Part shown: positions 11,488 to 53,999 of the stretch, one piece after another
Layout of the letters: each line of letters begins with the position of its first letter
Numbering within the stretch: the stretch's first letter is position 1
Source of the DNA: Gonatopus flavifemur
Lineage: Eukaryota; Arthropoda; Insecta; Hymenoptera; Dryinidae
Direction of reading: 5' to 3'
Length of the DNA stretch: 64,000 nt
Assembly (NCBI GenBank): GCA_018340375.1
Contig: JAFFJZ010000002.1
Coordinates: 12,976,001-13,040,000 of the forward strand
Made by a program: the position numbers and the translations under genes
Notes under the pieces: model-generated
The model's database searches: none
The model's input: the letters and a program-made list of their open reading frames with translations, nothing else
What the model was told of the DNA's origin: nothing

Positions 11488-11868
11488 TATCTCTCCAAAT
11501 TCCTTGGAGTGCAAGATTCCACTCTTACAGAGTGAGTTTTCACTCCATAAAAGTGAATGTTCACTGTACCGTTAAGGAAGTTTTAACTCGCTACAAGGGG
11601 ATACCAGCGCCGGGACATTAGCCAAATTTATTCTGACATTTTATTCAAAAATGAATATCGCTCTATACAGACCAACTTTATCAATTATCTCTATAGAGAG
11701 ATATTTTGATTTTATTGCTTCATTTTTTAATAAAATGTCAGAATAAATTTAGCTAATGTCCCGGCGCTTGTATCACCTTGAAAAGTGAAACCATCGCTCC
11801 AGAAGTGTGAAAATCCTCCCTTATAAAGTGGAAACTCACTCTCCTCCAATAAATTTAGAGAGATGGTT
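11488..11868. mobile_element. Outer MITE carrying a nested MITE
   Basis: ATCTCTCCAAATTCCTTGGA at the left pairs with AATAAATTTAGAGAGAT at the right. GAGTGAGTTTTCACTC-type arms lie on both sides. The middle is interrupted by the separate palindrome at 11594-11780. Confidence 0.55.
11594..11780. mobile_element. Nested MITE with GC-rich termini
   Basis: The left arm contains GATACCAGCGCCGGGACATT and the right arm AATGTCCCGGCGCTTGTATC. Pairing continues through ATTTATTCTGACATTTTATT on both sides. Arms of about 75 bp surround a short loop holding GCTCTATACAGACC, a motif also present near 8509 and 53952. Confidence 0.8.
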
Positions 11869-15043: not shown

Positions 15044-15052
15044 AATTGAAAC
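15044..15052. repeat. Left 9-bp target site duplication of the Foldback element
   Basis: AATTGAAAC lies directly before terminal GTGTCTGTG and is repeated exactly at 27472-27480. The shared direct repeat can be read as 11 bp (ACAATTGAAAC), because the terminus itself ends in AC. Confidence 0.9.
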
Positions 15053-15193
15053 GTGTCTGTGAAGTTGGCATATCAAATGTCAGCATCGCACAAAAAAGCA
15101 CCAGTTCTAGTCGCATCCACTATAGTTCTACAGTTCTTGATAAGTTACAACAATAGTTCCGGGTAAATTTGTGAAAAAAATCGATTTTGAAAA

Positions 15194-15684
15194 AATGATA
15201 TGCTAAGTTCTTCTACAATATGACAGCATCGCAGGGAAAATGGATGGAAATGGACTGTATCTCGGAGTTCTAGGGATGATTGGGATGCGAGGATGTCAAA
15301 ACAAGGGAGTTCTAATGCTAGAAGTGCTTGGGAAATTTTTTTCAGGAATTAAATGGAATGATATGCTGAGTTCTTCTACAATATGACAGCATCGCAGGGG
15401 TAATGGAAGGAAATTGACTATATCTAGGAGTTCTAGGGATGATTGGGATGCGAGGATGTCGAAACAAGGGAGTTCTGATGCTAGGAGTGCTTAAGAAATT
15501 TTTTTCGGGAATTAAATGAAGAGACATGAGGAGTTTTTCTACGATGTAGTAGCAGCGCAGGTGGAACCGCTGGAAGTGGACTATATCTCGGAGTTCTACG
15601 GCTGATTGGCATGTGAGGATGTCACGGAACGAGAGTTCTGATGTTGGGAGTAATCAGGGAGTCAATTGGGAGTCCCAGAGGATC
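15194..15684 (+). repeat. Three subterminal modules of about 160 bp (left arm)
   Basis: Modules begin near 15194, 15357 and 15516. Each contains a TTCTACAATATGACAGCATC-like block (diverged in the third), then a GAGTTCTAGGGATGATTGGG-like block, then GGAATTAAATG. The third module leads into the 31-bp array. The mirror set is at about 26844-27330. Confidence 0.8.
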
Positions 15685-18600
15685 GGGAGTTCCGACCAGC
15701 ATATCATTGAGAATCGAGAGTTCTGATCAGCATATCCTAGAGAATCGATAGTACTGACCAGCATATCATCAAAATCGATAGTTCTGACCAGCATATCGTT
15801 GAATATCAACAGTTCTGAGCAGCAAATCATTGGGAATCAATTGTTCTGACCAGAATATCATGGAAAATCGATAGTTCTGACTAGCATATCATGGAAAATG
15901 GGAGTTCTGATGAGCATATCAAAGAAAATCGATAGTTCTGAACAGCATCTCATGGAAAATCGATAGTTCTGACCAGCATATCATGGAGAATGGAGAGTTC
16001 TGAAGAGCATATCATAGAAAATCGATAGTTCTGACCAGCATATCATGGGAAATCAATAGTTCTGACCAGCATATCATAGAAAATCGATAGTTCTGACCAG
16101 CATATCATAGAGAATCGATAGTTCTGATCGGCATATCATAGAAAATCGATAGTTCTGACCAGCATATCATAGAAAATCGACAGTTCTGACCAGCATATCA
16201 ATGAAAATCGATAGTTCTGACCAGCATATCATGGAAAATGGAGTTCTGACCAGCATATCACGTAGAATGGGGAGTTCTGATGAGCATATCATAGAAAATC
16301 GATAGTTCTGACCAGCATATCATGGAGAATCGATAGTTCTGACCAGCATATCATAGAAAATCGATAGTTCTGACCAGCATATCATAGAAAATCGATAGTT
16401 CTGACCAGCATATCATAGAAAATCGACAGTTCTGACCAGCATCTCATGGAAAATCGATAATTCTGACCAGCATATCATAGGAAATCGATAGTTCTGACCA
16501 GCATATCATAGAAAATCGATAGTTCTGACCAGCATATCATGGAAAATGGAGAGTTCTGACCAGCATATCATGGAAAATCGATAGTTCTGACCAGCATATC
16601 ATGGAAAATGGATAGTTCTGATCGGCATATCATAGAAAATCGATAGTTCTGACCAGCATATCATAGAAAATCGACAGTTCTGACCAGCATATCATAGAAA
16701 ATCGATGGTTCTGACCAGCATATCATGGAAAATGGGGAGTTCTGATGAGCATATCAATCATCGATAGTTCTGACCAGCATATCATGGAAAATCGATAGTT
16801 CTGACCAGCATATCATGGAAAATGGATAGTTCTGACCAGCATATCATGGAAAATCGATAGTTCTGACCAGCATATCATGGAAAATGGATAGTTCTGATCG
16901 GCATATCATAGAAAATCGATAGTTCTGACCAGCATATCATAGAAAATCGACAGTTCTGACCAGCATATCATAGAAAATCGATGGTTCTGACCAGCATATC
17001 ATGGAAAATGGAGAGTTCTGACCAGCATATCATGGAAAATCGGAAGTTCTGACCAGCATATCATGGAAAATCAATAGTTCTGACCAGCATATCATAGAAA
17101 ATCGATAGTTCTTACCAGCATATCATGGAAAATGGAGAGTTCTGACCAGCATATCATGGAAAATCGATAGTTCTGACCAGCATATCATGGAAAATGGAGA
17201 GTTCTGACCAGCATATCATGGAAAATCGAGGGTTCTGACCAGCATATCATGGAAAATCAATAGTTCTGACCAGCATATCATGGAAAATCAATAGTTCTGA
17301 CCAGCATATCATAGAGAATCGATAGTTCTGATCGGCATATCATAGAAAATCGACAGTTCTGACCAGCATATCATAGAAAATGGAGAGTTCTGACCAGCAT
17401 ATCATGGAAAATCGAGGGTTCTGACCAGCATATCATGGAAAATGGGGAGTTCTGATGAGCATATCATAGAAAATCGATAGTTCTGACCAGCATATCATAG
17501 AAAATCGATAGTTCTGACCAGCATATCATAGAAAATCGATAGTTCTGACCAGCATATCATACACAATGAATAGTTCTGACCAGCATATCATAGAAAATGG
17601 AGAGTTCTGACCAGCATATCACAGAACATCGATAGTACTGACCAGCATATCATGGAAAATGGAGAGTTCTGACCAGCATATCATGGAAAATCGATAGTTC
17701 TGACCAGCATATCATGGAAAATCAATAGTTCAGACCAGCATATCATAGAAAATCGATAGTTCTGATCGGCATATCATAGAAAATCGATAGTTCTGACCAG
17801 CATATCATGGAAAATGGAGAGTGCTGACCAGCATATCATGGAAAATCGATAGTTCTGACCAGCATATCATAGAAAATCGATAGTTCTGACCAGCATATCA
17901 TACACAATGAATAGTTCTGACCAGCATATCATAGAAAATGGAGAGTTCTGACCAGCATATCACAGAACATCGATAGTACTGACCAGCATATCATGGAAAA
18001 TGAAGAGTTCTGACCAGCATATCATGGAAAATCGATAGTTCTGACCAGCATATCATGGAAAATCAATAGTTCAGACCAGCATATCATAGAAAATCGATAG
18101 TTCTGATCGGCATATCATAGAAAATCGATAGTTCTGACCAGCATATCATAGAAAATCGACAGTTCTGACCAGCATATCATAGAAAATCGATAGTTCTGAC
18201 CAGCATATCATAGAAAATCGATAGTTCTGACCAGCATATCATAGAAAATCGACATGTCTGACCAGCATATCATAGAAAATCGATAGTTCTGACCAGCATA
18301 TCATGGAAAATGGAGAGTTCTGACCAGCATATCAATGAAAATCGATAGTTCTGACCAGCATATCATAGAAAATCGATAGTTCTGACCAGCATATCATAGA
18401 GAATCGATAGTTCTGATCGGCATATCATAGAAAATCGATAGTTCTGACCAGCATATCATAGAAAATCGACAGTTCTGACCAGCATATCATTCTGACCAGC
18501 ATATCAATGAAAATCGATAGTTCTGACCAGCATATCATGGAAAATGGAGAGTTCTGACCAGCATATCACGTAGAATGGGGAGTTCTGATGAGCATATCAT

Positions 18601-19717
18601 AGAAAATCGATAGTTCCGACCAGCATATCATGGAGAATCGATAGTTCTGACCAGCATATCATAGAAAATCGATAGTTCTGACCAGCATATCATAGAAAAT
18701 CGATAGTTCTGACCAGCATATCATAGAAAATCGACAGTTCTGACCAGCATCTCATGGAAAATCGATAATTCTGACCAGCATATCATAGGAAATCGATAGT
18801 TCTGACCAGCATATCATAGAAAATCGATAGTTCTGACCAGCATATCATGGAAAATCGATAGTTCTGACCAGCATATCATGGAAAATGGAGAGTTCTGACC
18901 AGCATATCATGGAAAATGGGGAGTTCTGATGAGCATATCAAAGAAAATCGATAGTTCTGAACAGCATCTCATGGAAAATCGATAGTTCTGACCAGCATAT
19001 CATGGAGAATGGAGAGTTCTGAAGAGCATATCATAGAAAATCGATAGTTCTGACCAGCATATCATGGGAAATCAATAGTTCTGACCAGCATATCATAGAA
19101 AATCGATAGTTCTGACCAGCATATCATAGAGAATCGATAGTTCTGATCGGCATATCATAGAAAATCGATAGTTCTGACCAGCATATCATAGAAAATCGAT
19201 GGTTCTGACCAGCATATCATAGAAAATCGATAGTTCTGACCAGCAGATCATGGAAAATCGATAGTTCTGACCAGCATATCATAGAAAATCGATAGTTCTG
19301 ACGAGCATATCATAGAAAATCGATAGTTCAGAGCAGCATATCATGGAAAATGGAGAGTTCTGATGAGCATATCATATAAAATCGATAGTTCTGATCGGCA
19401 TACCATAGAAAATCGATAGTTCTGACCAGCATATCATAGAAAATCGATAGTCCTGACCAGCATATCATAGAAAATCGATAGTTCTGACCAGCATATCATA
19501 GGAAATCGACATTTCTGACCAGCATATCCTAGGAAATCGATAGTTCTGACCAGCATATCATGGAAAATGGAGAGTTCTGACCAGCATATCATGGAAAATC
19601 GATAGTTCTGATCGGCATATCATAGAAAATCGATAGTTCCGACCAGCATATCATAGAAAATCGATAGTTCTGACCAGCATATCATAGACAATGAATAGTT
19701 CTGACCAGCATATCATA
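15685..19717 (+). repeat. 31-bp satellite array, left block (about 130 units)
   Basis: The consensus unit, in two halves, is ATAGTTCTGACCAGCATAT plus CATAGAAAATCG. Variants replace ATCGATAG with ATGGAGAG, ATCGACAG or ATCAATAG, and GACCAG with GATCGG or GATGAG. The outermost units are degenerate while interior units are homogeneous. Higher-order repeats are visible, such as an 11-unit (about 341 bp) block bearing ATCACAGAACATCGATAGTA near 17620 and 17961. Confidence 0.95.
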
Positions 19718-22700
19718 GAACTGTCGATTTTCAAGGATATGCTGATCAGAACTCTTCATTTCTGATGATTTGCTGGTCAGAACCATCGATTCTCTATGAT
19801 ATGCTGGTCAGAACTATTGATTTCCTATGTTATGCTAGTGAGAATTATCGATTTTATTTGATATGCAGGTCAGAACTATCGATTTTCTATGATATGCCGA
19901 TCAGAACTATCGATTTCCTATGATATGCTCATCAGAACTCTCCACTTTCGATGATTTGCTGGTCGGAACTGTCGATTTTCTATGATATGCCGATCAGAAC
20001 TATCGATTTTCTATGATATGCTAGTCAGAACTATTGATTTTCCATGATATGCTGGTCAGAACTATCGATTTTGTTGGATATACTGGTCAGAACTGTCGAT
20101 TTTCGATGATTTGCTGATCAGAACTATCGATTTCCAATGATATTCTGGTCGGAACTATCGATTTCTAGGGGATGCTGATCAGAACTATGGATAATCAATG
20201 ATTTGCTGAACAGAACTGTCGATTTTCTATGATATGCTGGTCAGAACTATCGATTTTCTATGATATGCTGGTCAGAACTATTCATTGTGTATGATATGCT
20301 GGTCAGAACTATCGATTTTCTATGATATGCTCATCAGAACTCCCCATTTTCCATGATATGCTGGTCAGAACTCTCCATTTTCCATGATATGCTGGTCAGA
20401 ACTATCGATTTTCCATGATATGCTGGTCAGAACTATCGATTTTCTATGATATGCTGGTCAGAACTATCGATTTTCTATGGTATGCCGATCAGAACTATCG
20501 ATTTTATATGATATGCTCATCAGAACTCTCCATTTTCCATGATATGCTGCTCTGAACTATCGATTTTCTATGATATGCTGGTCTGAACTATTGATTTTCC
20601 ATGATATGCTGGTCAGAACTATCGATTTTCTAGGATATGCTGGTCAGAAATGTCGATTTCCTATGATATGCTGGTCAGAACTATCGATTTTCTATGATAT
20701 GCTGGTCAGGACTATCGATTTTCTATGATATGCTGGTCAGAACTATTGATTTTCCATGATATGCTGGTCAGAACCCTCGATTTTCCATGATATGCTGGTC
20801 AGAACTCTCCATTTTCTATGATATGCTGGTCAGAACTATCGATTTTCTATGATATGCTGGTAGAACTATCGATTTTCTATGATATGCTGGTCAGAACTAT
20901 CGATTTTCCATGATCTGCTGGTCAGAACTATCGATTTTCTATGATATGCTGGTCAGAACTATCGATTTTCTATGATATGCTGGTCAGAACTGTCGATTTT
21001 CTATGATATGCTGGTCAGATCTATCGATTTTCTATGATATGCCGATCAGAACTATCGATTTTCTATGATATGCTGGTCTGAACTATTGATTTTCCATGAT
21101 ATGCTGGTCAGAACTCTCCATTTTCTATGATATGCTGGTCAGAACTGTCGATTTTCTATGATATGCCGAACAGAACTATCGATTTTCTATGATATGCTGG
21201 TCAGAACTATTGATTTTCCATGATATGCTGGTCAGAACCCTCGATTTTCCATGATATGCTGGTCAGAACTCTCCATTTTCCATGATATGCTGGTCAGAAC
21301 TATCGATTTTCCATGATCTGCTGGTCAGAACTATCGATTTTCTATGATATGCTGGTCAGAACTATCGATTTTCCATGATCTGCTGGTCAGAACTATCGAT
21401 TTTCTATGATATGCTGGTCAGAACTATCGATTTTCTATGATATGCTGGTCAGAACTGTCGATTTTCTATGATATGCTGGTCAGAACTATCGATTTTCTAT
21501 GATATGCCGATCAGAACTATCGATTTTCTATGATATGCTGGTCTGAACTATTGATTTTCCATGATATGCTGGTCAGAACTCTCCATTTTCTATGGTATGC
21601 TGGTCAGAACTGTCGATTTTCTATGATATGCCGATCAGAACTATCGATTTTCTATGATATGCTGGTCAGAACTATTGATTTTCCATGATATGCTGGTCAG
21701 AACCCTCGATTCTCCATGATATGCTGGTCAGAACTCTCCATTTTCTATGATATGCTGGTCAGAACCATCGATTTTCTATGATATGCTGGTAGAACTATCG
21801 ATTTTCTATGATATGCTGGTCAGAACTATCGATTTTCCATGATCTGCTGGTCAGAACTGTCGATTTTCTATGATATGCCGATCAGAACTATCGATTTTCT
21901 ATGATATGCTGGTCAGAACTATTGATTTTCCATGATATGCTGGTCAGAACCCTCGATTTTCCATGATATGCTGGTCAGAACTCTCCATTTTCTATGATAT
22001 GCTGGTCAGAACTATCGATTTTCTATGATATGCTGGTCAGAACTGTCGATTTTCTATGATATGCCGATCAGAACTATCGATTTTCTATGATATGCTGGTC
22101 AGAACTATCGATTTTCCATGATATGCTGGTCAGAACTATCGATTTTCTATGATATGCTGGTCAGAACTATCGATTTTCTATGATATGCTGGTCAGAACTA
22201 TCGATTTTCCATGATCTGCTGGTCAGAACTATCGATTTTCTATGATATGCTGGTCAGAACTATCGATTTTCTATGATATGCTGGTCAGAACTATCGATTT
22301 TCTATGATATGCTGGTCAGAACTATCGATTTTCTATGATATGCTGGTCAGAACTGTCGATTTTCTATGATATGCTGGTCAGAACTATCGATTTTCTATGA
22401 TATGCTGGTCAGGACTATCGATTTTCTATGATATGCTGGTCAGAACTGTCGATTTTCTATGATATGCCGATCAGAACTATCGATTTTCTATGATATGCTG
22501 GTCAGAACTCTCCATTTTCCATGATATGCTGGCCAGAACTATCGATTTTCTATGATATGCTGGTCAGAACTGTCGATTTTCTATGATATGCTGGTAGAAC
22601 TATCGATTTTCTATGGAATGCTTGTCAGAACTATCGATTTTCCATGATCTGCTGGTCAGAACTATCGATTTTCTATGAGATGCTGGTCAGAACTATCGAT

Positions 22701-25700
22701 TTTCTATGATATGCTGGTCAGAACTGTCGATTTTCTATGATATGCTGGTCAGAACTATCGATTTTCTATGATATGCTGGTCAGAACTATCGATTTTCTAT
22801 GATATGCTGGTCAGAACTATCGATTTTCTATGGTATGCCGATCAGAACTATCGATTTTATATGATATGCTCATCAGAACTCTCCATTTTCCATGATATGC
22901 TGCTATGAACTATCGATTTTCTATGATATGCTGGTCAGAACTATCGATTTTCTATGATATGCTGGTCAGAACTATCGATTTTCCATGATTTGCTGTCCAG
23001 AACTATCGATTTTCTATGATACGCTGGTCAGAACTGTCGATTTTCTATGATATGCCGATCAGAACTATCGATTTTCTATGATATGCTGGTCAGAACTATT
23101 GATTTTCCATGATATGCTGGTCAGAACCCTCGATTTTCCATGATATGCTGGTCAGAACTCTCCATTTTCTATGATATGCTGGTCAGAACTATCGATTTTC
23201 TATGATATGCTGGTAGAACTATCGATTTTCTATGATATGCTGGTCAGAACTATCGATTTTCCATGATCTGCTGGTCAGAACTATCGATTTTCTATGATAT
23301 GCTGGTCAGAACTATCGATTTTCTATGATATGCTGGTCAGAACTGTCGATTTTCTATGATATGCTGGTCAGAACTATCGATTTTCCATGATTTGCTGTCC
23401 AGAACTATCGATTTTCTATGATACGCTGGTCAGAACTGTCGATTTTCTATGATATGCCGATCAGAACTATCGATTTTCTATGATATGCTGGTCAGAACTA
23501 TTGATTTTCCATGATATGCTGGTCAGAACCCTCGATTTTCCATGATATGCTGGTCAGAACTCTCCATTTTCTATGATATGCTGGTCAGAACTATCGATTT
23601 TCTATGATATGCTGGTAGAACTATCGATTTTCTATGATATGCTGGTCAGAACTATCGATTTTCCATGATCTGCTGGTCAGAACTATCGATTTTCTATGAT
23701 ATGCTGGTCAGAACTATCGATTTTCTATGATATGCTGGTCAGAACTGTCGATTTTCTATGATATGCTGGTCAGAACTATCGATTTTCTATGATATGCCGA
23801 TCAGAACTCGATTTTTTATGATATGCTGGTCTGAAACTGATTTTCCATGATATGCTGGTCAGAACTATCGATTTTCCATGATATGCTGGTCAGAACTGTC
23901 GATTTTCTATGATATGCCGATCAGAACTATCGATTTTCTATGATATGCTGGTCAGAACTATTGATTTTCCATGATATGCTGGTCAGAACCCTCGATTTTC
24001 CATGATATGCTGGTCAGAACTCTCCATTTTCTATGATATGCTGGTCAGAACTATCGATTTTCTATGATATGCTGGTAGAACTATCGATTTTCTATGATAT
24101 GCTGGTCAGAACTATCGATTTTCCATGATCTGCTGGTCAGAACTATCGATTTTCTATGATATGCTGGTCAGAACTATCGATTTTCTATGATATGCTGGTC
24201 AGAACTGTCGATTTTCTATGATATGCTGGTCAGAACTATCGATTTTCTATGATATGCCGATCAGAACTATCGATTTTCTATGATATGCTGGTCTGAACTA
24301 TTGATTTTCCATGATATGCTGGTCAGAACTCTCCATTTTCTATGGTATGCTGGTCAGAACTGTCGATTTTCTATGATATGCCGATCAGAACTATCGATTT
24401 TCTATGATATGCTGGTCAGAACTATTGATTTTCCATGATATGCTGGTCAGAACCCTCGATTTTCCATGATATGCTGGTCAGAACTCTCCATTTTCTATGA
24501 TATGCTGGTCAGAACTATCGATTTTCTATGATATGCTGGTCAGAACTGTCGATTTTCTATGATATGCCGATCAGAACTATCAATTTTCTATGATATGCTG
24601 GTCAGAACTCTCCATTTTCCATGATATGCTGGCCAGAACTATCGATTTTCTATGATATGCTGGTCAGAACTGTCGATTTTCTATGATATGCTGGTAGAAC
24701 TATCGATTTTCTATGATATGCTTGTCAGAACTATCGATTTTCCATGATCTGCTGGTCAGAACTATCGATTTTCTATGATATGCTGGTCAGAACTATCGAT
24801 TTTCTATGATATGCTGGTCAGAACTATCGATTTTCTATGATATGCTGGTCAGAACTATCGATTTTCTATGATATGCTGGTCAGAACTGTCGATTTTCTAT
24901 GATATGCTGGTCAGAACTATCGATTTTCTATGATATGCTGGTCAGGACTATCGATTTTCTATGATATGCTGGTCAGAACTGTCGATTTTCTATGATATGC
25001 CGATCAGAACTATCGATTTTCTATGATATGCTGGTCAGAACTCTCCATTTTCCATGATATGCTGGCCAGAACTATCGATTTTCTATGATATGCTGGTCAG
25101 AACTGTCGATTTTCTATGATATGCTGGTAGAACTATCGATTTTCTATGGAATGCTTGTCAGAACTATCGATTTTCCATGATCTGCTGGTCAGAACTATCG
25201 ATTTTCTATGAGATGCTGGTCAGAACTCTCCATTTTCCATGATATGCTGGTCAGAACTATCGATTTTCCATGATCTGCTGGTCAGAACTATCGATTTTCT
25301 ATGATATGCTGGTCAGAACTATCGATTTTCTATGGTATGCCGATCAGAACTATCGATTTTATATGATATGCTCATCAGAACTCTCCATTTTCCATGATAT
25401 GCTGCTATGAACTATCGATTTTCTATGATATGCTGGTCAGAACTATCGATTTTCTATGATATGCTGGTCAGAACTATCGATTTTCCATGATTTGCTGTCC
25501 AGAACTATCGATTTTCTATGATACGCTGGTCAGAACTGTCGATTTTCTATGATATGCCGATCAGAACTATCGATTTTCTATGATATGCTGGTCAGAACTA
25601 TTGATTTTCCATGATATGCTGGTCAGAACCCTCGATTTTCCATGATATGCTGGTCAGAACTCTCCATTTTCTATGATATGCTGGTCAGAACTATCGATTT

Positions 25701-26843
25701 TCTATGATATGCTGGTAGAACTATCGATTTTCTATGATATGCTGGTCAGAACTATCGATTTTCCATGATCTGCTGGTCAGAACTATCGATTTTCTATGAT
25801 ATGCTGGTCAGAACTATCGATTTTCTATGATATGCTGGTCAGAACTGTCGATTTTCTATGATATGCTGGTCAGAACTATCGATTTTCTATGATATGCCGA
25901 TCAGAACTATCGATTTTCTATGATATGCTGGTCTGAACTATTGATTTTCCATGATATGCTGGTCAGAACTCTCCATTTTCTATGGTATGCTGGTCAGAAC
26001 TGTCGATTTTCTATGATATGCCGATCAGAACTATCGATTTTCTATGATATGCTGGTCAGAACTATTGATTTTCCATGATATGCTGGTCAGAACCCTCGAT
26101 TTTCCATGATATGCTGGTCAGAACTCTCCATTTTCTATGATATGCTGGTCAGAACTATCGATTTTCTATGATATGCTGGTAGAACTATCGATTTTCTATG
26201 ATATGCTGGTCAGAACTATCGATTTTCCATGATCTGCTGGTCAGAACTATCGATTTTCTATGATATGCTGGTCAGAACTATCGATTTTCTATGATATGCT
26301 GGTCAGAACTGTCGATTTTCTATGATATGCTGGTCAGAACTATCGATTTTCTATGATATGCCGATCAGAACTATCGATTTTCTATGATATGCTGGTCTGA
26401 ACTATTGATTTTCCATGATATGCTGGTCAGAACTCTCCATTTTCTATGGTATGCTGGTCAGAACTGTCGATTTTCTATGATATGCCGATCAGAACTATCG
26501 ATTTTCTATGATATGCTGGTCAGAACTATTGATTTTCCATGATATGCTGGTCAGAACCCTCGATTTTCCATGATATGCTGGTCAGAACTCTCCATTTTCT
26601 ATGATATGCTGGTCAGAACTATCGATTTTCTATGATATGCTGGTCAGAACTATCGATTTCCTATGATATGCTGGTCAGAACTGTCGATTTTCTATGATAT
26701 GCTGGTCAGAACTATCGATTTTCTATGATATGCCGATCAGAACTATCGATTTTCTATGATATGCTGGTCAGAACTATTGATTTTCCATGATATGCTGGTC
26801 AGAACTATCGATTTTCCATGATATGCTGGTCGGAACTCCCGAT
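19718..26843 (-). repeat. 31-bp satellite array, right block in inverse orientation (about 230 units)
   Basis: The same 31-bp unit as its reverse complement, read as GATATGCTGGTCAGAACTAT and onward. Units next to the centre (about 19720-20220) are the most diverged. A 28-bp deletion unit, GCTGGTAGAACTATCG, recurs about ten times between 20860 and 26171 in large copied blocks. A 2.5-kb segment starting near 22830 recurs near 25335. No single-copy DNA separates this block from the left block. Confidence 0.95.
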
Positions 26844-27330
26844 TCTCTGAGACTCCCAATTGACTCCCTGATTACTCCCAACATCAGAACTCTCGTTCCT
26901 TGACATCCTCACATGCCAATCAGCCGTAGAACTCCGGGATATAGTCCACTTCCAGCGGTTTCCCTGCGCTGCTACTACATCGTAGAAGAACTCCTCATGT
27001 CTCTTCATTTAATTCCCGAGAAAAATTTCTTAAGCACTCCTAGCATCAGAACTCCCTTGTTTTGACATCCTCGCATCCCAATCATCCCTAGAACTCCTAG
27101 ATATAGTCAATTTCCTTCCGTTACCCCTGCGATGCTGTCATATTGTAGAAGAACTCAGCATATCATTCCATTTAATTCCTGAAAAAAATTTCCTAAGCAC
27201 TTCTAGCATTAGAACTCCCTTGTTTTGACATCCTCGCATCCCAATCATCCCTAGAACTCCGAGATACAGTTCATTTCCATCCATTTTCCCTGCGATGCTG
27301 TCATATTGTAGAAGAACTTAGCATATCATT
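26844..27330 (-). repeat. Three subterminal modules of about 160 bp (right arm)
   Basis: Inverse counterpart of 15194-15684 with only scattered substitutions and short indels. The 67-codon minus-strand frame here belongs to the transposon arm and is not a gene. Confidence 0.8.
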
Positions 27331-27471
27331 TTTTCAAAATCGATTTTTTTCACAAATTTACCCGGAACTATTGTTGTAACTTATCAAGAACTGTAGAACT
27401 ATAGTGGATGCGACTAGAACTGGTGCTTTTTTGTGCGATGCTGACATTTGATATGCCAACTTCACAGACAC

Positions 27472-27480
27472 AATTGAAAC
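27472..27480. repeat. Right 9-bp target site duplication of the Foldback element
   Basis: AATTGAAAC lies directly after terminal CACAGACAC and pairs with 15044-15052. A further copy with its flank occurs at 33521-33529 because of the 6-kb duplication. Confidence 0.9.
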
Positions 27481-29753
27481 GCTAAAAAAATGTGAAACAT
27501 ATTTAGAAAGAAAAATCATCAAAATTAAGGTGCTGTAACAGATTGAAAAATTATTAAAGAAAAAACATATCGGTCGCAAGGATAATCGGATCATTGGAAG
27601 CTTACAAGTGTAGAGAAGCCTAATACGTGGTAAGAATTTCTCTCCGAAAGGAATGCTTTAAATCCCTCGGGGAGCCATCGAGGCTCAGATTAATTTTGAA
27701 ATCTCGTGGAGTTGAAGTTCCTTTGACGAGACCTATATTGTTTGTCTAGTGGAACTTAAATCATTTCCACACAGAAAGGAAAATAATACAAAAATTGACT
27801 GCGTTGACGATAATGAATCGTTTTGATTCTTCAAATTGAAAATCCACTTTTAGTTTAGGTACTGGAAAAGTTTGTTATACAAATTGTATTCTTTCCCTCC
27901 GTGTAGGACGATCCCATACTTCTGCGTGACCAGTTCCAGTTAACGTACAAACCGAAGAAGTATGAGATTGTTCTATTAGCTATATCAGCAGAATTTTTCG
28001 TTCAATGATCCCTGTTAGATTGATTTGTTCCGATCCGGAATAGCACACCAGGCCTTTCGTTGGCCTTTCTTGGCAGCATTTTTAGTCATGAAAATAGTTC
28101 ACTTTGATTTTTTAGAATTCGATAAATAATTCTTCATAACCTGAGTTCGCAATCCGTGAAATCTAGAAAAATTCTACTTACTTTATCGAAATAGCTTTTT
28201 TCTGATATGTATTCCAGATTTATTTAAAAATGCATGCATTTTTTCAAATTATATATAATTCAAATCCATCAGAAACAAATGATTATCAATCTGAATCCGA
28301 ACAAATTATCTGATTCAATAATTCATGTAAAATCAATGTTTTTCGGAACACTTCTTTACAAGAAAAACGATAAAATACTTCAATGTCGTTGACCTCTTTC
28401 GACTGCAGTAACCAGTGAGTATAGATATACATATACATAGGTATCAGAGATAACAGCAGAGAGGAGTATCATAGAAAGGATGAGTTAGAAGAGGAGGATT
28501 AACACAGGGTAGAAAAAGCATCAGAAAAAATAAGAGAAAAGGGAAGCGCCCTGATGTGGCGAGGCAAGGCGCATGGCACGCCACCGGGTATCAGTGTCAA
28601 TATGCAACGCAAGTTACGAGAACCCATTAAGGCTTTGCTCTGGCAAACCTTATTCTACTTTTACTCCTTCGTGGTGCATTCTCGCACGTGCGGGTGGGTG
28701 GGTGATTGAACATAAGCACGAGACAGAAGACAGTCACGTTTGAGCATTTCTACCGATATTAAATATATCTCTTTTATTAGATTTTTTTATTGTTGCAAAG
28801 TAAAACGGGTTTTTTTTTATGCATTATTTCTCTTCTTCTCCAATTCTTTTTGTCTTCTACAAAAAATAAAATATAAACATTCATTACTTATAAAAAATCT
28901 CCCCACAAATTTTTAGTTTCACATGAATGCAATTTCTGGTGATTACAAGATTATCTCCTTATTAACAATTCGTTCTCAGTAAACATGAATTTTTTTCATG
29001 TTAATTTTCTCGGTATATATAATGTTCTATTTTTTTATATTATAAGGTTCAGTAGTTATGATCTCCATTATATGCGAGAATTTGATTTAGCATGACATGT
29101 TTTCGAGTAATCTTAATCAAGGAATTCATCCTCAAGTGAGGTATATTACATGGATGTAGCAACATTCTAATTAATCTCATGCCTGATCTTGATATTATAA
29201 TCATACTCATGAATTCAAGTGTTCTTGTATAACCTGTATAAAAACTTGATCTATTGTGGTGTGAATATGGATTTGAATATATACAAAACATGTAGATACG
29301 ATTCATTATAATTGGTGATGAAACTATAAATGAAAATACAAAATGAACTGTTAATTGGAATATTTGTTAATTAAATATTTCCAATAATCTAATAAAATCT
29401 ATTGAATTGGATTTTAAAACATGAAATGAGTAAAGAAAACATTCAAATATTCTCTTGGAACCCAAATACTTTGAATTTGAAGGTTGAAAGAAGGAAATTT
29501 CTTAAAATAATAAAATATGTATAGTATTTGATAATGACTATAGTTTTTTCGTCAGACCAAAAGGATTTTTGAAACACTTATGTGGAAAAATCTTTCAAAG
29601 TATATATAATTTATACATAATAACATATAAACTCCATTGAATAATATACAAATTATATGTATTCTGAAAAATGTTCTATTTGGGTGAATCAAGGTTTACA
29701 CAGAGAAAAATGGTCAATTAGCGCTGTTAAGATTAGTTTCAATTAGAATGATA
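27481..29753. other. Non-coding flank with a GC-rich island
   Basis: AT-rich DNA without a recognised gene. About 28545-28745 is strikingly GC-richer, with GCGCCCTGATGTGGCGAGGC, a GCACGTGC E-box palindrome near 28684 and a GGGTGGGTGGGTG run. In the second copy (34575-34780) a 62-codon frame appears only because a T run is one shorter, so coding use is doubtful. A promoter or conserved non-coding element is possible. The remainder of this flank shows nothing recognisable. Confidence 0.35.
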
Positions 29754-29961
29754 CACTGAGAAAAAGGAGAGTGAACACTACACGAGACAGTTGGATACGT
29801 TTGAACACAATTAGCAACTGAATTGTATATATTCAAATACGTACTTCGTTTGTCTAAACAGATTTGAAACAAGTAGATACTGTTCTCAATTGAGCAACTA
29901 ACTGTATTTAAACGTATCCAACGGTCTCGCGTAGTGCACTACACTTCCGTTTTCCTTAGTG
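29754..29961. mobile_element. MITE, CACTGAGAAAA type
   Basis: CACTGAGAAAAAGGAGAGTG at the left is mirrored by CACTTCCGTTTTCCTTAGTG at the right. Inner arms CAGTTGGATACGTTTGAA and TTTAAACGTATCCAACGG also pair. It is 208 bp and non-coding. The duplicate is at 35787-35994. Confidence 0.75.
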
Positions 29962-30955
29962 TATAACTTGAATAATTTGAAATATTCACATGCTTGATCT
30001 CGCAAACTGTTCGTCAAAGTACAACGCAAATCGAAGCCAAGACGATCGATTTTCCTCCTGAATGAAGGGAGAAATAAGGTAGCAGGAACTAATTAAAATA
30101 AAACTCTGAACAATATTAATTTTCATCTGTTCATCTATCTATTTCAACTGAATTCAATCAATCCAACTCGATCTCCGTTTGCAATTCGGAATATTGACAT
30201 GAATAATCTGTTCACTAACGTTTATTATCACATATTCTGATTTGAAATCATTATATATTCCATCAAAGTAACGTCTTGGTGAGTAAAGATGATGGGGGTT
30301 TCAAAAAGAGGGGAGCATAAACTGCTATCCAGTCTTTGATAAGAAATCTGTCCATTATTAAATGAGAGGGGAGTGAATGTTTTCGAGAACGTGGCATAGC
30401 TTCTAATCAACGCTTGGCTGTACTAATTATCCCTTTTTTTTCTATCGAAAATAATCAAAAACAAAGTCTCTTGGTTGTATCGAGTAATGAAATATAATAT
30501 GGCACTGAGTTTACAATCACATTAGCAATTTTGTTTGTCGTATTGAAATTTAGAATTTTCAAAATGTTCAGAGGGAATATTTAGAAAAATATTTCTGTAA
30601 ATTCACTGTAAGGAATATTTATGCGATCAAGCAAAAATCTGCAGCCTAAAGCTAGCAGCCGAATGTCATAATTCCTATATAAAATGTTCATTACAGATTT
30701 GATGATCTGGAACGTTTACACGGAGAAAAAAACTAGCAATAATATCGCTGGATCGACAATAAACTATTGTTATATATCAACCCACAATAAAATCGTAGAA
30801 ATATCGTTCAAGATTGTTGTATTGGCAATTTTATTGTTAACAAGACAACTATGTGTTGTTAGAAGAACAAAAATTATTGTACATCTGATTGTGAAGGAAT
30901 TGTGGAATTCCTTTTTTTACTCTGAAATGTATATAAATTCATCTTTTCTCCTTAA

Positions 30956-31830
30956 GGGACTAGTACCGGTTTCAAGACTAAAAAACGACCCATATTTGAA
31001 CTCTTTGTTTCTTGTTTCTTTTATTACAAAACTTTATACAAGCTCTTGCCTTCAATTTGTACATCTTTTGGGAGCGTATACAAATTTTTTTCCTTTTCTT
31101 TCATCGATCATTATTTACTACAAAGCGCCAAAGTCGAGTCCTCGAAAATGAGACCCTCACACTACGCTGAAATAATCTCAAAACTGGCATGTCTCAAACA
31201 GAAATTTCAAGTAGCGTTTCAAAGAGAAAGGTAGTTTACATCGTAATTCACCACCTATTTATGAAAAATTGAAAAAAAAAAAACACAAAATGACGGCTTT
31301 GTGAAAAAAACGATGTAAAAAACACGGATTTTTCCACCTTTTTTCCCTTTGCCAAATTTTTTTTCACCAATTTTTCTGCAATTCTTTGGTGAATTACGGT
31401 AGAGGAGATCAAAATAAACAAATGCACCAAGAATAAAACAAATCTATCTAGTGGTTGCGGAGAATAAATCAGCGCAGTTTGGAAAAATTCTATTTTGAGT
31501 AAAACGCGTTTGAAGTTTTACGATAAATTTTAAGAACATTTGAATTACTAAAACTCTCCAAGGATGGGCATTCTTGTACTCCCGGAGTATTTTCAGTAAG
31601 GAATACTTCTTGTTGACCCCATATGACAACATATTTTACACAAGACAAGAAAGTACTCCACTGAAAGTACTCCAGGAGTACGAAAATACTCCCGGCTGCC
31701 CATCCCTGCAACTCTCTTATTTTTTCGAATTTCATTACCAAATTTCAGGAGGTGATTTTTGAAGGTATAACCTTACATGAAATGTTATAGAAAAATAAAT
31801 TTTTTCAAAATTCCAACTGGTACTAGTCCC
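30956..31830. mobile_element. TTAA-flanked element, 875 bp
   Basis: The left end TTAAGGGACTAGTACC and the right end GGTACTAGTCCCTTAA are perfect inverses. TTAA stands at both borders (30952-30955 and 31831-31834), the target preference of piggyBac-type elements. No transposase frame is present. A second transposon is nested at 31559-31708. A 155-codon frame (30684-31151) crosses the left border and is therefore accidental. Confidence 0.7.
31559..31708. mobile_element. Nested hAT-type MITE, 150 bp
   Basis: Termini CAAGGATGGGCA and TGCCCATCCCTG resemble the CAGGGATGGGCA ends common in hAT elements. Flanking 8-mers AAACTCTC (31551-31558) and CAACTCTC (31709-31716) match at 7 of 8 positions. The arms pair through CCGGGAGTATTTTC. 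Confidence 0.75.
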
Positions 31831-31834
31831 TTAA

Positions 31835-32620
31835 ACATCGTTGCCCTTTAATATTCGATGAATTCATCGTAAAAGAAAACTTCATAAACGATTCATACTT
31901 TCTACCTGTACAGTATGAATCAAACGTATGATTAGTCTCAACAATATGACATCTCGAAAAGATAGGTATTCTGTTCTTTCGCCACCCTAATAATATCATC
32001 GGTAAAACACAGCACCAAATGTACAAGAATACTCTCCTTTTGCCGTGTTCGAAAGTACCGTTGGAAGGAACACCAACACCACCTTTAAAAATTTTCTATG
32101 AAAGACAAAATATAATATATGCGAATTTTTACATATATTTATATATTCATATCTTCAAGTGTTATTCGTTTATGAACAATTTGATAATGATATGATTCCT
32201 TTTTGAATTATATAATCAGTTATGAATAATTCATATTGTCGAAGAATTATGTATAAACAAATGAAGTATATGTATATATATATACATATATTGTTGTTCG
32301 AACCAACTCAGTTTTTTTTGGCTTGGAGAAAAGTTTCATTTTGAATTCTCAGATTATTCCTTCGATTGTAGGATGGGCTTTATAAATAAATAAATATATT
32401 CATAATGATATAAAATTAAAACCAGAATACATGAGAATACAGATTACATGAGAAATGCTTTTGTGAGAAGCATTGTTGTTTAAATAACAATATTATAATA
32501 ATTCAGAAATATACTTTTTGACAACTACATTCATACTGTAAGTACCACACTCCTATATTTGCACACTTTGAACCGAATCTTTGCTTACATGAAATTGCCC
32601 CGTATAATCATTAGCAACCT
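31835..32620. other. AT-rich non-coding DNA, nothing recognised
   Basis: No gene was seen. A TATATGTATATATATATACA palindrome lies near 32268. The same stretch recurs at 37869-38654. Confidence 0.45.
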
Positions 32621-33520
32621 CCATGATATGCTGGTCAGAACTCTCCATTTTCTATGATATGCTGGTCAGAACTATCGATTTTCTATGATATGCTGGTCAG
32701 AACTATCGATTTCCTATGATATGCTGGTCAGAACTGTCGATTTTCTATGATATGCTGGTCAGAACTATCGATTTTCTATGATATGCCGATCAGAACTATC
32801 GATTTTCTATGATATGCTGGTCAGAACTATTGATTTTCCATGATATGCTGGTCAGAACTATCGATTTTCCATGATATGCTGGTCGGAACTCCCGATTCTC
32901 TGAGACTCCCAATTGACTCCCTGATTACTCCCAACATCAGAACTCTCGTTCCTTGACATCCTCACATGCCAATCAGCCGTAGAACTCCGGGATATAGTCC
33001 ACTTCCAGCGGTTTCCCTGCGCTGCTACTACATCGTAGAAGAACTCCTCATGTCTCTTCATTTAATTCCCGAGAAAAATTTCTTAAGCACTCCTAGCATC
33101 AGAACTCCCTTGTTTTGACATCCTCGCATCCCAATCATCCCTAGAACTCCTAGATATAGTCAATTTCCTTCCGTTACCCCTGCGATGCTGTCATATTGTA
33201 GAAGAACTCAGCATATCATTCCATTTAATTCCTGAAAAAAATTTCCTAAGCACTTCTAGCATTAGAACTCCCTTGTTTTGACATCCTCGCATCCCAATCA
33301 TCCCTAGAACTCCGAGATACAGTTCATTTCATCCATTTTCCTGCGATGCTGTCATATTGTAGAAGAACTTAGCATATCATTTTTCAAAATCGATTTTTTC
33401 ACAAATTTACCCGGAACTATTGTTGTAACTTATCAAGAACTGTAGAACTATAGTGGATGCGACTAGAACTGGTGCTTTTTTGTGCGATGCTGACATTTGA
33501 TATGCCAACTTCACAGACAC
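32621..33520 (-). mobile_element. Truncated right end of the Foldback element (duplicate)
   Basis: It has about nine 31-bp units, the three 160-bp modules and the terminus CACAGACAC, followed by AATTGAAAC at 33521-33529. It has no left end, so it arose by the segmental duplication and not by transposition. Confidence 0.9.
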
Positions 33521-35786
33521 AATTGAAACGCTAAAAAAATGTGAAACATATTTAGAAAGAAAAATCATCAAAATTAAGGTGCTGTAACAGATTGAAAAAT
33601 TATTAAAGAAAAACATATCGGTCGCAAGGATAATCGGATCATTGGAAGCTTACAAGTGTAGAGAAGCCTAATACGTGGTAAGAATTTCTCTCCGAAAGGA
33701 ATGCTTTAAATCCTCGGGAGCCATCGAGGCTCAGATTAATTTTGAAATCTCGTGGAGTTGAAGTTCCTTTGACGAGACCTATATTGTTTGTCTAGTGGAA
33801 CTTAAATCATTTCCACACAGAAAGGAAAATAATACAAAATTGACTGCGTTGACGATAATGAATCGTTTTGATTCTTCAAATTGAAAATCCACTTTTAGTT
33901 TAGGTACTGGAAAAGTTTGTTATACAAATTGTATTCTTTCCTCCGTGTAGGACGATCCCATACTTCTGCGTGACCAGTTCCAGTTAACGTACAAACCGAA
34001 GAAGTATGAGATTGTTCTATTAGCTATATCAGCAGAATTTTTCGTTCAATGATCCCTGTTAGATTGATTTGTTCCGATCCGGAATAGCACACCAGGCCTT
34101 TCGTTGGCCTTTCTTGGCAGCATTTTTAGTCATGAAAATAGTTCACTTTGATTTTTTAGAATTCGATAAATAATTCTTCATAACCTGAGTTCGCAATCCG
34201 TGAAATCTAGAAAATTCTACTTACTTTATCGAAATAGCTTTTTCTGATATGTATTCCAGATTTATTTAAAAATGCATGCATTTTTCAAATTATATATAAT
34301 TCAAATCCATCAGAAACAAATGATTATCAATCTGAATCCGAACAAATTATCTGATTCAATAATTCATGTAAAATCAATGTTTTTCGGAACACTTCTTTAC
34401 AAGAAAAACGATAAAATACTTCAATGTCGTTGACCTCTTTCGACTGCAGTAACCAGTGAGTATAGATATACATATACATAGGTATCAGAGATAACAGCAG
34501 AGAGGAGTATCATAGAAAGGATGAGTTAGAAGAGGAGGATTAACACAGGGTAGAAAAAGCATCAGAAAAAATAAGAGAAAAGGGAAGCGCCCTGATGTGG
34601 CGAGGCAAGGCGCATGGCACGCCACCGGGTATCAGTGTCAATATGCAACGCAAGTTACGAGAACCCATTAAGGCTTTGCTCTGGCAAACCTTATTCTACT
34701 TTACTCCTTCGTGGTGCATTCTCGCACGTGCGGGTGGGTGGGTGATTGAACATAAGCACGAGACAGAAGACAGTCACGTTTGAGCATTTCTACCGATATT
34801 AAATATATCTCTTTTATTAGATTTTTTTATTGTTGCAAAGTAAAACGGGTTTTTTTTTATGCATTATTTCTCTTCTTCTCCAATTCTTTTTGTCTTCTAC
34901 AAAAATAAAATATAAACATTCATTACTTATAAAAATCTCCCACAAATTTTTAGTTTCACATGAATGCAATTTCTGGTGATTACAAGATTATCTCCTTATT
35001 AACAATTCGTTCTCAGTAAACATGAATTTTTTCATGTTAATTTTCTCGGTATATATAATGTTCTATTTTTTTATATTATAAGGTTCAGTAGTTATGATCT
35101 CCATTATATGCGAGAATTTGATTTAGCATGACATGTTTTCGAGTAATCTTAATCAAGGAATTCATCCTCAAGTGAGGTATATTACATGGATGTAGCAACA
35201 TTCTAATTAATCTCATGCCTGATCTTGATATTATAATCATACTCATGAATTCAAGTGTTCTTGTATAACCTGTATAAAAACTTGATCTATTGTGGTGTGA
35301 ATATGGATTTGAATATATACAAAACATGTAGATACGATTCATTATAATTGGTGATGAAACTATAAATGAAAATACAAAATGAACTGTTAATTGAATATTT
35401 GTTAATTAAATATTTCCAATAATCTAATAAAATCTATTGAATTGGATTTTAAAACATGAAATGAGTAAAGAAAACATTCAAATATTCTCTTGGAACCCAA
35501 ATACTTTGAATTTGAAGGTTGAAAGAAGGAAATTTCTTAAAATAATAAAATATGTATAGTATTTGATAATGACTATAGTTTTTCTGTCAGACCAAAGGAT
35601 TTTTGAAACACTTATGTGGAAAATCTTTCAAAGTATATATAATTTATACATAATAACATATAAACTCCATTGAATAATATACAAATTATATGTATTCTGA
35701 AAAATGTTCTATTTGGGTGAATCAAGGTTTACACAGAGAAAAATGGTCAATTAGCGCTGTTAAGATTAGTTTCAATTAGAATGATA

Positions 35787-35994
35787 CACTGAGAAAAAGG
35801 AGAGTGAACACTACACGAGACAGTTGGATACGTTTGAACACAATTAGCAACTGAATTGTATATATTCAAATACGTACTTCGTTTGTCTAAACAGATTTGA
35901 AACAAGTAGATACTGTTCTCAATTGAGCAACTAACTGTATTTAAACGTATCCAACGGTCTCGCGTAGTGCACTACACTTCCGTTTTCCTTAGTG
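35787..35994. mobile_element. MITE, CACTGAGAAAA type (duplicate)
   Basis: Copy of the 29754-29961 element inside the second tandem copy, with the same ends and length. Confidence 0.75.
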
Positions 35995-36987
35995 TATAAC
36001 TTGAATAATTTGAAATATTCACATGCTTGATCTCGCAAACTGTTCGTCAAAGTACAACGCAAATCGAAGCCAAGACGATCGATTTTCCTCCTGAATGAAG
36101 GGAGAAATAAGGTAGCAGGAACTAATTAAAATAAAACTCTGAACAATATTAATTTTCATCTGTTCATCTATCTATTTCAACTGAATTCAATCAATCCAAC
36201 TCGATCTCCGTTTGCAATTCGGAATATTGACATGAATAATCTGTTCACTAACGTTTATTATCACATATTCTGATTTGAAATCATTATATATTCCATCAAA
36301 GTAACGTCTTGGTGAGTAAAGATGATGGGGGTTTCAAAAAGAGGGGAGCATAAACTGCTATCCAGTCTTTGATAAGAAATCTGTCCATTATTAAATGAGA
36401 GGGGAGTGAATGTTTTCGAGAACGTGGCATAGCTTCTAATCAACGCTTGGCTGTACTAATTATCCCTTTTTTTTCTATCGAAAATAATCAAAAACAAAGT
36501 CTCTTGGTTGTATCGAGTAATGAAATATAATATGGCACTGAGTTTACAATCACATTAGCAATTTTGTTTGTCGTATTGAAATTTAGAATTTTCAAAATGT
36601 TCAGAGGGAATATTTAGAAAAATATTTCTGTAAATTCACTGTAAGGAATATTTATGCGATCAAGCAAAAATCTGCAGCCTAAAGCTAGCAGCCGAATGTC
36701 ATAATTCCTATATAAAATGTTCATTACAGATTTGATGATCTGGAACGTTTACACGGAGAAAAAAACTAGCAATAATATCGCTGGATCGACAATAAACTAT
36801 TGTTATATATCAACCCACAATAAAATCGTAGAAATATCGTTCAAGATTGTTGTATTGGCAATTTTATTGTTAACAAGACAACTATGTGTTGTTAGAAGAA
36901 CAAAAATTATTGTACATCTGATTGTGAAGGAATTGTGGAATTCCTTTTTTTACTCTGAAATGTATATAAATTCATCTTTTCTCCTTA

Positions 36988-37864
36988 AGGGACTAGTACC
37001 GGTTTCAAGACTAAAAAACGACCCATATTTGAACTCTTTGTTTCTTGTTTCTTTTATTACAAAACTTTATACAAGCTCTTGCCTTCAATTTGTACATCTT
37101 TTGGGAGCGTATACAAATTTTTTTCCTTTTCTTTCATCGATCATTATTTACTACAAAGCGCCAAAGTCGAGTCCTCGAAAATGAGACCCTCACACTACGC
37201 TGAAATAATCTCAAAACTGGCATGTCTCAAACAGAAATTTCAAGTAGCGTTTCAAAGAGAAAGGTAGTTTACATCGTAATTCACCACCTATTTATGAAAA
37301 ATTGAAAAAAAAAACACAAAATGACGGCTTTGTGAAAAAAACGATGTAAAAAACACGGATTTTTCCACCTTTTTTCCCTTTGCCAAATTTTTTTTCACCA
37401 ATTTTTCTGCAATTCTTTGGTGAATTACGGTAGAGGAGATCAAAATAAACAAATGCACCAAGAATAAAACAAATCTATCTAGTGGTTGCGGAGAATAAAT
37501 CAGCGCAGTTTGGAAAAATTCTATTTTGAGTAAAACGCGTTTGAAGTTTTTTTACGATAAATTTTAAGAACATTTGAATTACTAAAACTCTCCAAGGATG
37601 GGCATTCTTGTACTCCCGGAGTATTTTCAGTAAGGAATACTTCTTGTTGACCCCATATGACAACATATTTTACACAAGACAAGAAAGTACTCCACTGAAA
37701 GTACTCCAGGAGTACGAAAATACTCCCGGCTGCCCATCCCTGCAACTCTCTTATTTTTTCGAATTTCATTACCAAATTTCAGGAGGTGATTTTTGAAGGT
37801 ATAACCTTACATGAAATGTTATAGAAAAATAAATTTTTTCAAAATTCCAACTGGTACTAGTCCC
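36988..37864. mobile_element. TTAA-flanked element (duplicate)
   Basis: Duplicate of 30956-31830 in the second tandem copy, with TTAA at 36984-36987 and 37865-37868. Confidence 0.7.
37593..37742. mobile_element. Nested hAT-type MITE (duplicate)
   Basis: Duplicate of 31559-31708, same length and same flanking 8-mers. Confidence 0.75.
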
Positions 37865-38719
37865 TTAAACATCGTTGCCCTTTAATATTCGATGAATTCA
37901 TCGTAAAAGAAAACTTCATAAACGATTCATACTTTCTACCTGTACAGTATGAATCAAACGTATGATTAGTCTCAACAATATGACATCTCGAAAAGATAGG
38001 TATTCTGTTCTTTCGCCACCCTAATAATATCATCGGTAAAACACAGCACCAAATGTACAAGAATACTCTCCTTTTGCCGTGTTCGAAAGTACCGTTGGAA
38101 GGAACACCAACACCACCTTTAAAAATTTTCTATGAAAGACAAAATATAATATATGCGAATTTTTACATATATTTATATATTCATATCTTCAAGTGTTATT
38201 CGTTTATGAACAATTTGATAATGATATGATTCCTTTTTGAATTATATAATCAGTTATGAATAATTCATATTGTCGAAGAATTATGTATAAACAAATGAAG
38301 TATATGTATATATATATACATATATTGTTGTTCGAACCAACTCAGTTTTTTTTGGCTTGGAGAAAAGTTTCATTTTGAATTCTCAGATTATTCCTTCGAT
38401 TGTAGGATGGGCTTTATAAATAAATAAATATATTCATAATGATATAAAATTAAAACCAGAATACATGAGAATACAGATTACATGAGAAATGCTTTTGTGA
38501 GAAGCATTGTTGTTTAAATAACAATATTATAATAATTCAGAAATATACTTTTTGACAACTACATTCATACTGTAAGTACCACACTCCTATATTTGCACAC
38601 TTTGAACCGAATCTTTGCTTACATGAAATTGCCCCGTATAATCATTAGCAACCTCCATGACCATTGGTTTCTTCTCCAAATCTTTTTACAACCCTTTGCT
38701 GCCATATTGGAAAAAATCA

Positions 38720-53273: not shown

Positions 53274-53533
53274 CACGCAGCGAAAAGTTACCTAAAAAAT
53301 TACTATACTTTATAGTAAAATAGGGACAAAATCACATTTTGAGGTTATGTATTATATATTGTCATTGAAAAAATTACTATACTTTCTAGTAAAGAGTGAT
53401 GGAATTCTGTGAATCTATTGATAGAAAGCATAGTAAGTTTAATAACAACATATAATACATAACCCCAAAATGTGATTTTGTCCCTATTTTACCATAAAGT
53501 GTAGTAATTTTTTAGGTAACTTTTCTCTGCGTG
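53274..53533. mobile_element. Palindromic MITE, CACGCAG type, 260 bp
   Basis: CACGCAGCGAAAAGTTACCT and AGGTAACTTTTCTCTGCGTG are inverted ends. The arms continue through ATAGGGACAAAATCACATTT and its inverse. The duplicate lies at 59481-59737. Confidence 0.85.
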
Positions 53534-53606
53534 CAAGCGCTTGCCATTCGGCAATCCAGAATTGGAGATATACAGACGACTAGAAAATTTTGCTGGATTA
53601 CAAAAA

Positions 53607-53793
53607 ATGAAGCTGAAACTAGCGGCCAAAAGCTAGCAGCCGATTGTTGTAACTTTGAATTAAACTTGATTCGAATATTTTTCATATGAAGAATTGATTA
53701 AGTGGCTTCCAACTAAGCGTCTTTGCTATTGAAATACTTTATGAAATGATTCTATCAAAAGTTACATCAATTGGCTGCCAATTTCAGCTTCAT
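53607..53793. mobile_element. ATGAAGCT-family MITE with 8-bp target duplication
   Basis: ATGAAGCTGAAACTAGCGGC at the left and GCTGCCAATTTCAGCTTCAT at the right are inverted ends, with AGCAGCCGATTGTTGTAACT and its diverged inverse inside. TACAAAAA stands exactly at both borders (53599-53606 and 53794-53801), as expected for a hAT-type element. Partial relatives lie near 8880, 30645, 51947, 52938 and 53860. Confidence 0.85.
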
Positions 53794-53999
53794 TACAAAA
53801 ACTCTTATGAAAAATTCGAGTTCAATCAAAATTGAGCTACGACGTTTAATCGAAATGTGTAATAATCGGCTGTTAGCTTCAAACTACCAGTTTCAGCTTC
53901 ATAAATCTTTTCTGCTCAATTATTCGAAAATGAAGCGATGAAATCAAAATATGGCTCTGTACAGACCATGTTTACTGATTCATTCACAGGAAGGTTTTC

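Follow-up and report, generated by a model that had tools for sequence, protein, structure and literature searches.

Can an interval of 12.4 kb whose interior is entirely a short tandem repeat be a transposon, what moves it, and does its repeat exist anywhere else? These questions are raised by a stretch of 64,000 nt from the dryinid hymenopteran Gonatopus flavifemur (contig JAFFJZ010000002.1, positions 12,976,001 to 13,040,000 of the forward strand; G000:C110:12976001-13040000), hereafter called the window. A preliminary description, made from the letters of the window alone, had interpreted positions 15,044 to 27,480 as a Foldback transposon with inverted termini, outer arms, exact 9-bp repeats at both borders and two opposing blocks of a 31-bp satellite. 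These features and their coordinates hold, the outer domains being 635 and 634 bp and the satellite comprising 359 units, and our search of the genome (636 Mb in 402 contigs) supports the reading as a Foldback-type transposon that duplicates 9 bp of its target and has a satellite as its interior. The element is very probably a nonautonomous cut-and-paste DNA transposon, for which a transposase of the Mutator-like (MULE) type is the most likely motor.

The copy in the window occupies 15,053-27,471, between two copies of AATTGAAAC (15,044-15,052 and 27,472-27,480), and carries the 17-base terminus GTGTCTGTGAAGTTGGC at both ends, at 15,053 on the plus strand and at 27,455-27,471 on the minus strand. 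Its parts are the following.

15044..15052, no strand: left target site duplication, 9 bp, AATTGAAAC
15053..15687, plus strand: left outer domain, 635 bp, with the 17-base terminus and then about 2.7 copies of a 163-bp module (15,193-15,624)
15688..19720, plus strand: forward 31-bp array of about 129 units, consensus AGTTCTGACCAGCATATCATAGAAAATCGAT (Tandem Repeats Finder, TRF)
19709..19741, no strand: type B centre, the head-on junction of the arrays
19717..26848, minus strand: reverse 31-bp array of about 230 units, with exact internal repeats of up to 666 bp (TRF)
26838..27471, minus strand: right outer domain, 634 bp, terminating in GCCAACTTCACAGACAC
27472..27480, no strand: right target site duplication, 9 bp

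The two outer domains differ by 1.7%, and each holds about 2.7-2.8 copies of the 163-bp module. The unit scan gives the satellite as 129 + 230 = 359 units.

The expectation that other loci would share these ends and 9-bp duplications was borne out. The exact 17-base terminus has 187 matches genome-wide (95 forward and 92 reverse), against none for the reversed control. They form 85 inward-facing pairs less than 30 kb apart, which leaves 17 ends alone. Over the same distance only three outward-facing neighbours occur, and the single same-strand case comes from the arm duplicated in the window, itself counted among the 17. The distance covered by a pair ranges from 117 bp to 24.6 kb (the largest being C349:42733094-42757720), with a median of 7,988 bp and a total of 733,395 bp. 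One pair on the small contig C204 (L031) is the same insertion as L032 (C110:35951005-35956583), the 400-bp flanks being 100% identical on each side, so that the distinct paired insertions number no more than 84; C204 is probably an alternative haplotype or a duplicate contig. Altogether, the family has roughly 100 copies in the genome.

Both borders were read at 53 distinct insertion sites, comprising 45 pairs (the C204 duplicate being omitted) and 8 of the 39 remaining pairs, namely those in which a pyrimidine precedes both ends. Of the 53 sites, 51 have an exact 9-bp duplication (25/25, 19/20 and 7/8 by batch), and the duplication sequences all differ from one another within the batch of 25 and within the batch of 20. 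A satellite array with inverted blocks, no transposon and merely coincidental border repeats would account for an interior that is wholly tandem repeat; it is refuted by the recurrence of the same ends at 85 paired places and by the exact duplications, and we give it virtually no credence. An empty counterpart of the window site, which had also been looked forward to, was not found in this assembly within three mismatches.

What do the copies have in common? The complete sequence was read for 25 long copies (the window copy, L009-L028, L032, L088, L089 and L090), the remaining pairs being known only from their ends or only as coordinates. All 25 run from an outer domain through a forward array and a reverse array to a second outer domain, L088 with an additional inverted block, and none of them showed a unique core; a few arrays include stretches, of 47 bp at most, in which the unit scan identified no unit. 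The arrays start about 473, 555, 636, 718 or 881 bases from the element end, in steps of about 82 or 163 bp, and they meet at a centre that is of type A in 18 of the 25 copies and of type B in 7 (the window copy included), some centres showing one or two changes. The 33 bases of the type B centre in the window copy are identical in L018, L022, L024 and L088, and differ by one change in L089 and two in L090.

The unit scan of 23 rows (22 loci and the C204 duplicate) returned 3,817 units, 457 of them distinct, with a mean identity of 92.5% to the consensus. The repeat number ranges from 20 to 230 units (44 arms, 22 loci), varying between copies and between the two arms of a copy, and a unit-based analysis, in which four copies were printed, revealed no strong short-period higher-order organisation in the arrays. 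In 24 of the 25 copies (L088 being omitted), the two arms, compared in inverted orientation over the length of the shorter one, show 90.4-98.4% identity, and they are predicted to fold on each other. When the four largest copies were sampled as five 501-bp slices each, three showed a forward and then a reverse array, and in the fourth, two of the five slices were other DNA, probably from an element inserted within it.

Conserved termini, 9-bp target duplications, repeat-built outer domains and inverted 31-bp arrays meeting at a conserved centre therefore characterise the element. A long copy is a giant hairpin composed almost entirely of a single short tandem repeat, unusual in its size and uniformity although of a known kind. 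The view that the window copy in particular had swollen into an array finds no support, as all 25 long copies are of the same kind, although its 230-unit arm is the longest of the 44 arms counted.

Foldback elements are classic, and long repeat arrays are hard to assemble. Could the length and the palindromic form be assembly artefacts? The window gives some grounds for the suspicion, as it has two 6-kb tandem duplications. In the first, of 6.05 kb (26,567-32,626 versus 32,620-38,660), 22 of the 24 differences are homopolymer length changes, 21 of these being losses in the second copy, and this points to an assembly duplicate left without polishing. It includes one further feature.

32620..33520, minus strand: second right arm with 9 satellite units, within the 6.05-kb tandem duplication

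This second right arm is probably an assembly duplicate and not a second insertion. The other tandem duplication, of about 6.2 kb (51,634-57,839 versus 57,840-64,053, running past the window end), is 99.6% identical, with 10 substitutions and indels. Off-register unit spacings also occur in the arrays of the window copy, which has 18, compared with 14 in L027 and 0-3 in each of the other 21 rows, which makes its exact array length less reliable than the lengths in the cleaner copies. On the other hand, of the 22 further rows scanned, 13 keep perfect 31-bp register in both arrays, the same insertion is present on two contigs with nearly the same array, and the plan recurs at 25 loci. In view of these data, we consider an artefactual origin of the length and form highly improbable.

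Which transposase might move such an element? The 9-bp duplication fits the MULE superfamily but is not unique to it, and it is from these duplications, together with statements on foldback elements in PMC4079207 and PMC3169594, that we infer a MULE-type source (published systems are drawn on here from portions of the cited articles). In favour of such a source, the genome contains at least 150 matches to a MULE domain. A transposase made elsewhere, most likely of the MULE type, would bind the ends of the element, excise it and insert it with a 9-bp stagger. The arms could fold on each other, and slippage, unequal exchange or break repair among the 31-bp units would add or remove whole-unit blocks while the ends and the centre stay fixed; pairing between the arms might occasionally flip the centre or copy one arm onto the other. 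Every jump would bring a ready-made palindromic satellite to a new place.

The copies bear traces that can be compared with such a course of events. Among 1,460 comparisons of arms from different loci, 17 gave ungapped identity across 600 bp or more; ten loci take part in these, the window's included, and this identity between loci indicates that the family moved very recently. The window copy and its sister L024 have identical left outer domains, right outer domains that differ by 0.16% and the same centre, but are 12.4 and 8.0 kb in length, respectively. Alignment of their units revealed whole-block insertions and deletions in both arms; the two copies match exactly over 779 bp across the centre and stay in register at their outer ends, and it is the intervening array that differs. 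L014 and L016 differ by a single 62-unit block in one arm (22 versus 84 units). The listed spacings of exact internal duplications of at least 200 bp are whole multiples of 31 in most copies, being off by one to about nine bases in the window copy, L009, L023 and, in one case, L019.

Exchange between arms may also have left its mark. Of the 18 type A copies, 11 have an outer domain of cluster 16 on side one of the centre and 7 have one of cluster 18 on side two. The two clusters are reversed in L021, which may reflect a flip of the centre through exchange between the arms, and cluster 16 is on both sides in L010 and L026. Arm identity in L026 reaches 97.5% over 2.6 kb, whereas 20 of the 23 further copies measured lie between 90.4 and 93.4%, which suggests that in L026 one arm was converted by the other.

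A number of observations weigh against a MULE-moved cut-and-paste transposon with arrays that change by whole blocks. Among the 53 sites, one is without a duplication and one has only a 7-bp overlap. The search for the transposase used one MULE domain model and no other transposase family, and yielded at least 150 matches in the genome (323 candidates, 150 scored). None of the 150 scored matches lies inside the 85 pairs, the nearest being 18 kb away, and for this reason the family looks nonautonomous. Ten MULE loci of about 3.3 kb each, taken to about 1.5 kb beyond each match, showed no convincing match to the terminus or the outer domain. The transposase with the same termini, Mutator-like or other, that the preliminary description had proposed to look for was not found with this one model. 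The same Foldback-class element might instead be moved by a transposase of another superfamily that makes 9-bp duplications, such as Merlin, the target duplications of which are 8-9 bp, the Foldback form being convergent, as in Galileo. Besides the failure to find a MULE with these ends, this alternative can draw on Galileo as a case of Foldback form outside the MULEs (PMC3688188) and on the FB elements of Drosophila melanogaster, which are called P-element-related in PMC7642927. The exact 9 bp at 51 of 53 sites speaks against it, this being a common length in the MULE-group table of PMC6446971, and we regard a transposase from outside the MULEs as rather unlikely.

Further points concern the change of the arrays. 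The insertion found on two contigs (L031 and L032) has arms of 86/86 and 31/32 units, so that its arrays hardly differ and the array is stable in this single case. The mechanism of array change is deduced from end products only, and the array lengths depend on the assembly. The arms of L010 are only average-alike (93.1%) despite a single outer-domain type, and those of L022, L089 and L090 are more than 94% alike without a known reason; the case for arm conversion therefore rests mainly on L026. With these points taken into account, a nonautonomous Foldback-type transposon served by a MULE-type transposase is still the explanation that we prefer.

Is the satellite found outside its carrier? The preliminary description took the element as an example of how a transposon seeds satellite DNA in the genome, and the counts lend this no support. 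An exact 30-mer of the unit, in two variants, occurs 5,527 times genome-wide and 1,145 times in the 163,687 bp of the 25 complete copies; assuming uniform density, 5,130 occurrences are expected within the 85 paired copies, and the remaining 397 can sit in lone-ended copies. No excess of free satellite was thus seen in this count, which does not cover diverged units or collapsed or unassembled arrays.

These counts bear on the origin of the array. A pre-existing satellite may have been captured once by a small inverted-repeat transposon, in which case the array would be a passenger and not a product of the element. The weak similarity between the unit and the outer domain is in keeping with such a capture, the best ungapped match being 21/31 and equalled by 6 of 200 shuffles. 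The genome-wide counts, by contrast, leave little room for a large free source of this exact kind, and the diverged ends L002 and L039 already run into the 31-bp array, which indicates that the array is not new in the family. Such a capture appears to us possible but doubtful. Derivation of the 31-bp unit from the terminus or outer domain was also considered and is not claimed: in gapped alignment, the comparison with the first 60 bases in forward orientation was matched by 8 of 500 shuffles, and the other five comparisons by 484, 65, 70, 58 and 71 of 500.

As a tentative suggestion, and one that we put well below the transposon itself in likelihood, the element may be a mobile satellite. A palindromic satellite would be its sole cargo, the 31-bp units would be kept as serving transposition (e.g., as repeated transposase binding sites), and the array would be resized in whole-unit blocks by repair at each jump and would exist almost only inside the element. 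If this is true, satellite amplification and transposition are one process.

How does the element compare with known systems? The FB elements of D. melanogaster are close to it in plan, with 9-bp duplications, mirrored arrays of variable number and a similar unit length (PMC7642927). In the two FB elements of that study, the end sequences measure 467-479 bp, and a 321-322-bp middle region lies between mirrored blocks of five 27-31-bp repeats, the number of which varies between copies and arms (PMC7642927). In G. flavifemur, by contrast, one 31-bp family fills the interior and the centre is only tens of bases, FB being compared here by description only. The preliminary description saw no known resemblance to FB in the termini and took the family to be an independent or very diverged one of the Foldback class, which it may be. 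The element therefore belongs to the Foldback structural class, and the five-repeat blocks around a middle region that describe FB are absent from it.

The closest precedent that we have seen for kilobase-size arrays inside a Foldback element is Tetris of Drosophila virilis, which is likewise nonautonomous and of Foldback structure, with tandem repeats within its arms (PMC4079207). Tetris has a 220-bp unit, three structurally complete copies and 8-10-bp duplications, and 39 contigs hold its repeat only, yet fibre-FISH found no array of the repeat alone (PMC4079207). The present family differs in its 31-bp unit and its 85 pairs, and its units were not seen in excess beyond the elements. Tm1 of Meloidogyne, a Foldback-form Mutator/Phantom family with elements of 1,080 and 2,593 bp, shares Foldback-like composite inverted repeats, 9-bp duplications and a repeat number that differs between the ends, but its unit is about 14 bp, its outer motifs are asymmetric and it has a transposase-coding member (PMC3169594), of which no equivalent was found here. 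Galileo resembles the element in its long, internally repetitive, Foldback-like inverted repeats, and its tandem repeats carry extra transposase binding sites; it differs in belonging to the P superfamily and in having arms of 0.5-1.2 kb (PMC3688188). Rehavkus and other MULEs also make 9-bp duplications, and a minisatellite has been reported in Rehavkus and in aphid Phantom elements, but these encode a transposase (PMC6446971), whereas no MULE match lies in any pair of the present family. No prior description of the family appeared among the papers listed by one open-licence library, a search made without sequence comparison to repeat libraries, and one may exist elsewhere.

The family is young; 85 pairs of its ends are assembled, the widest spanning 24.6 kb, and among them are sister copies and one insertion on two contigs. 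Growth, shrinkage, flipping and conversion of palindromic arrays could be traced in it event by event. It presents a satellite that spreads by transposition without visible escape from its carrier, which bears on the question of when transposons seed free satellite DNA.

Several individual copies deserve mention. L029 (C110:34351961-34352077) is a 117-bp remnant, a miniature derivative with an exact 9-bp duplication. The pair C218:21777053-21785218 (L091, L092) has clean ends and no target duplication; it could be the product of ectopic exchange between two copies, and one of the two possible reciprocal exchange ends was searched for and not found. In C346:608117-628962 (L110, L111, L125), the left arm gives way, about 1 kb into its array, to other DNA that starts with TGTCACG and has the look of a nested insertion, and apparently another tandem repeat lies further in, judging from the frames of L111. 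This copy was also considered as a candidate autonomous partner and was rejected, its longest frame being only 82 codons in the 2.9 kb read. No exact match to the element was found in viral contigs with the two patterns searched.

In the window itself, none of ten open reading frames matched a Pfam family above the cut-off, two weak matches lying below it, and a scan revealed no Rfam family at the gathering score and no tRNA. Two short inverted-repeat palindromes, at 53274-53533 (about 260 bp) and 11594-11780 (187 bp), match themselves in inverted orientation at 86% and 78%, respectively, and are possibly other small hairpin elements.

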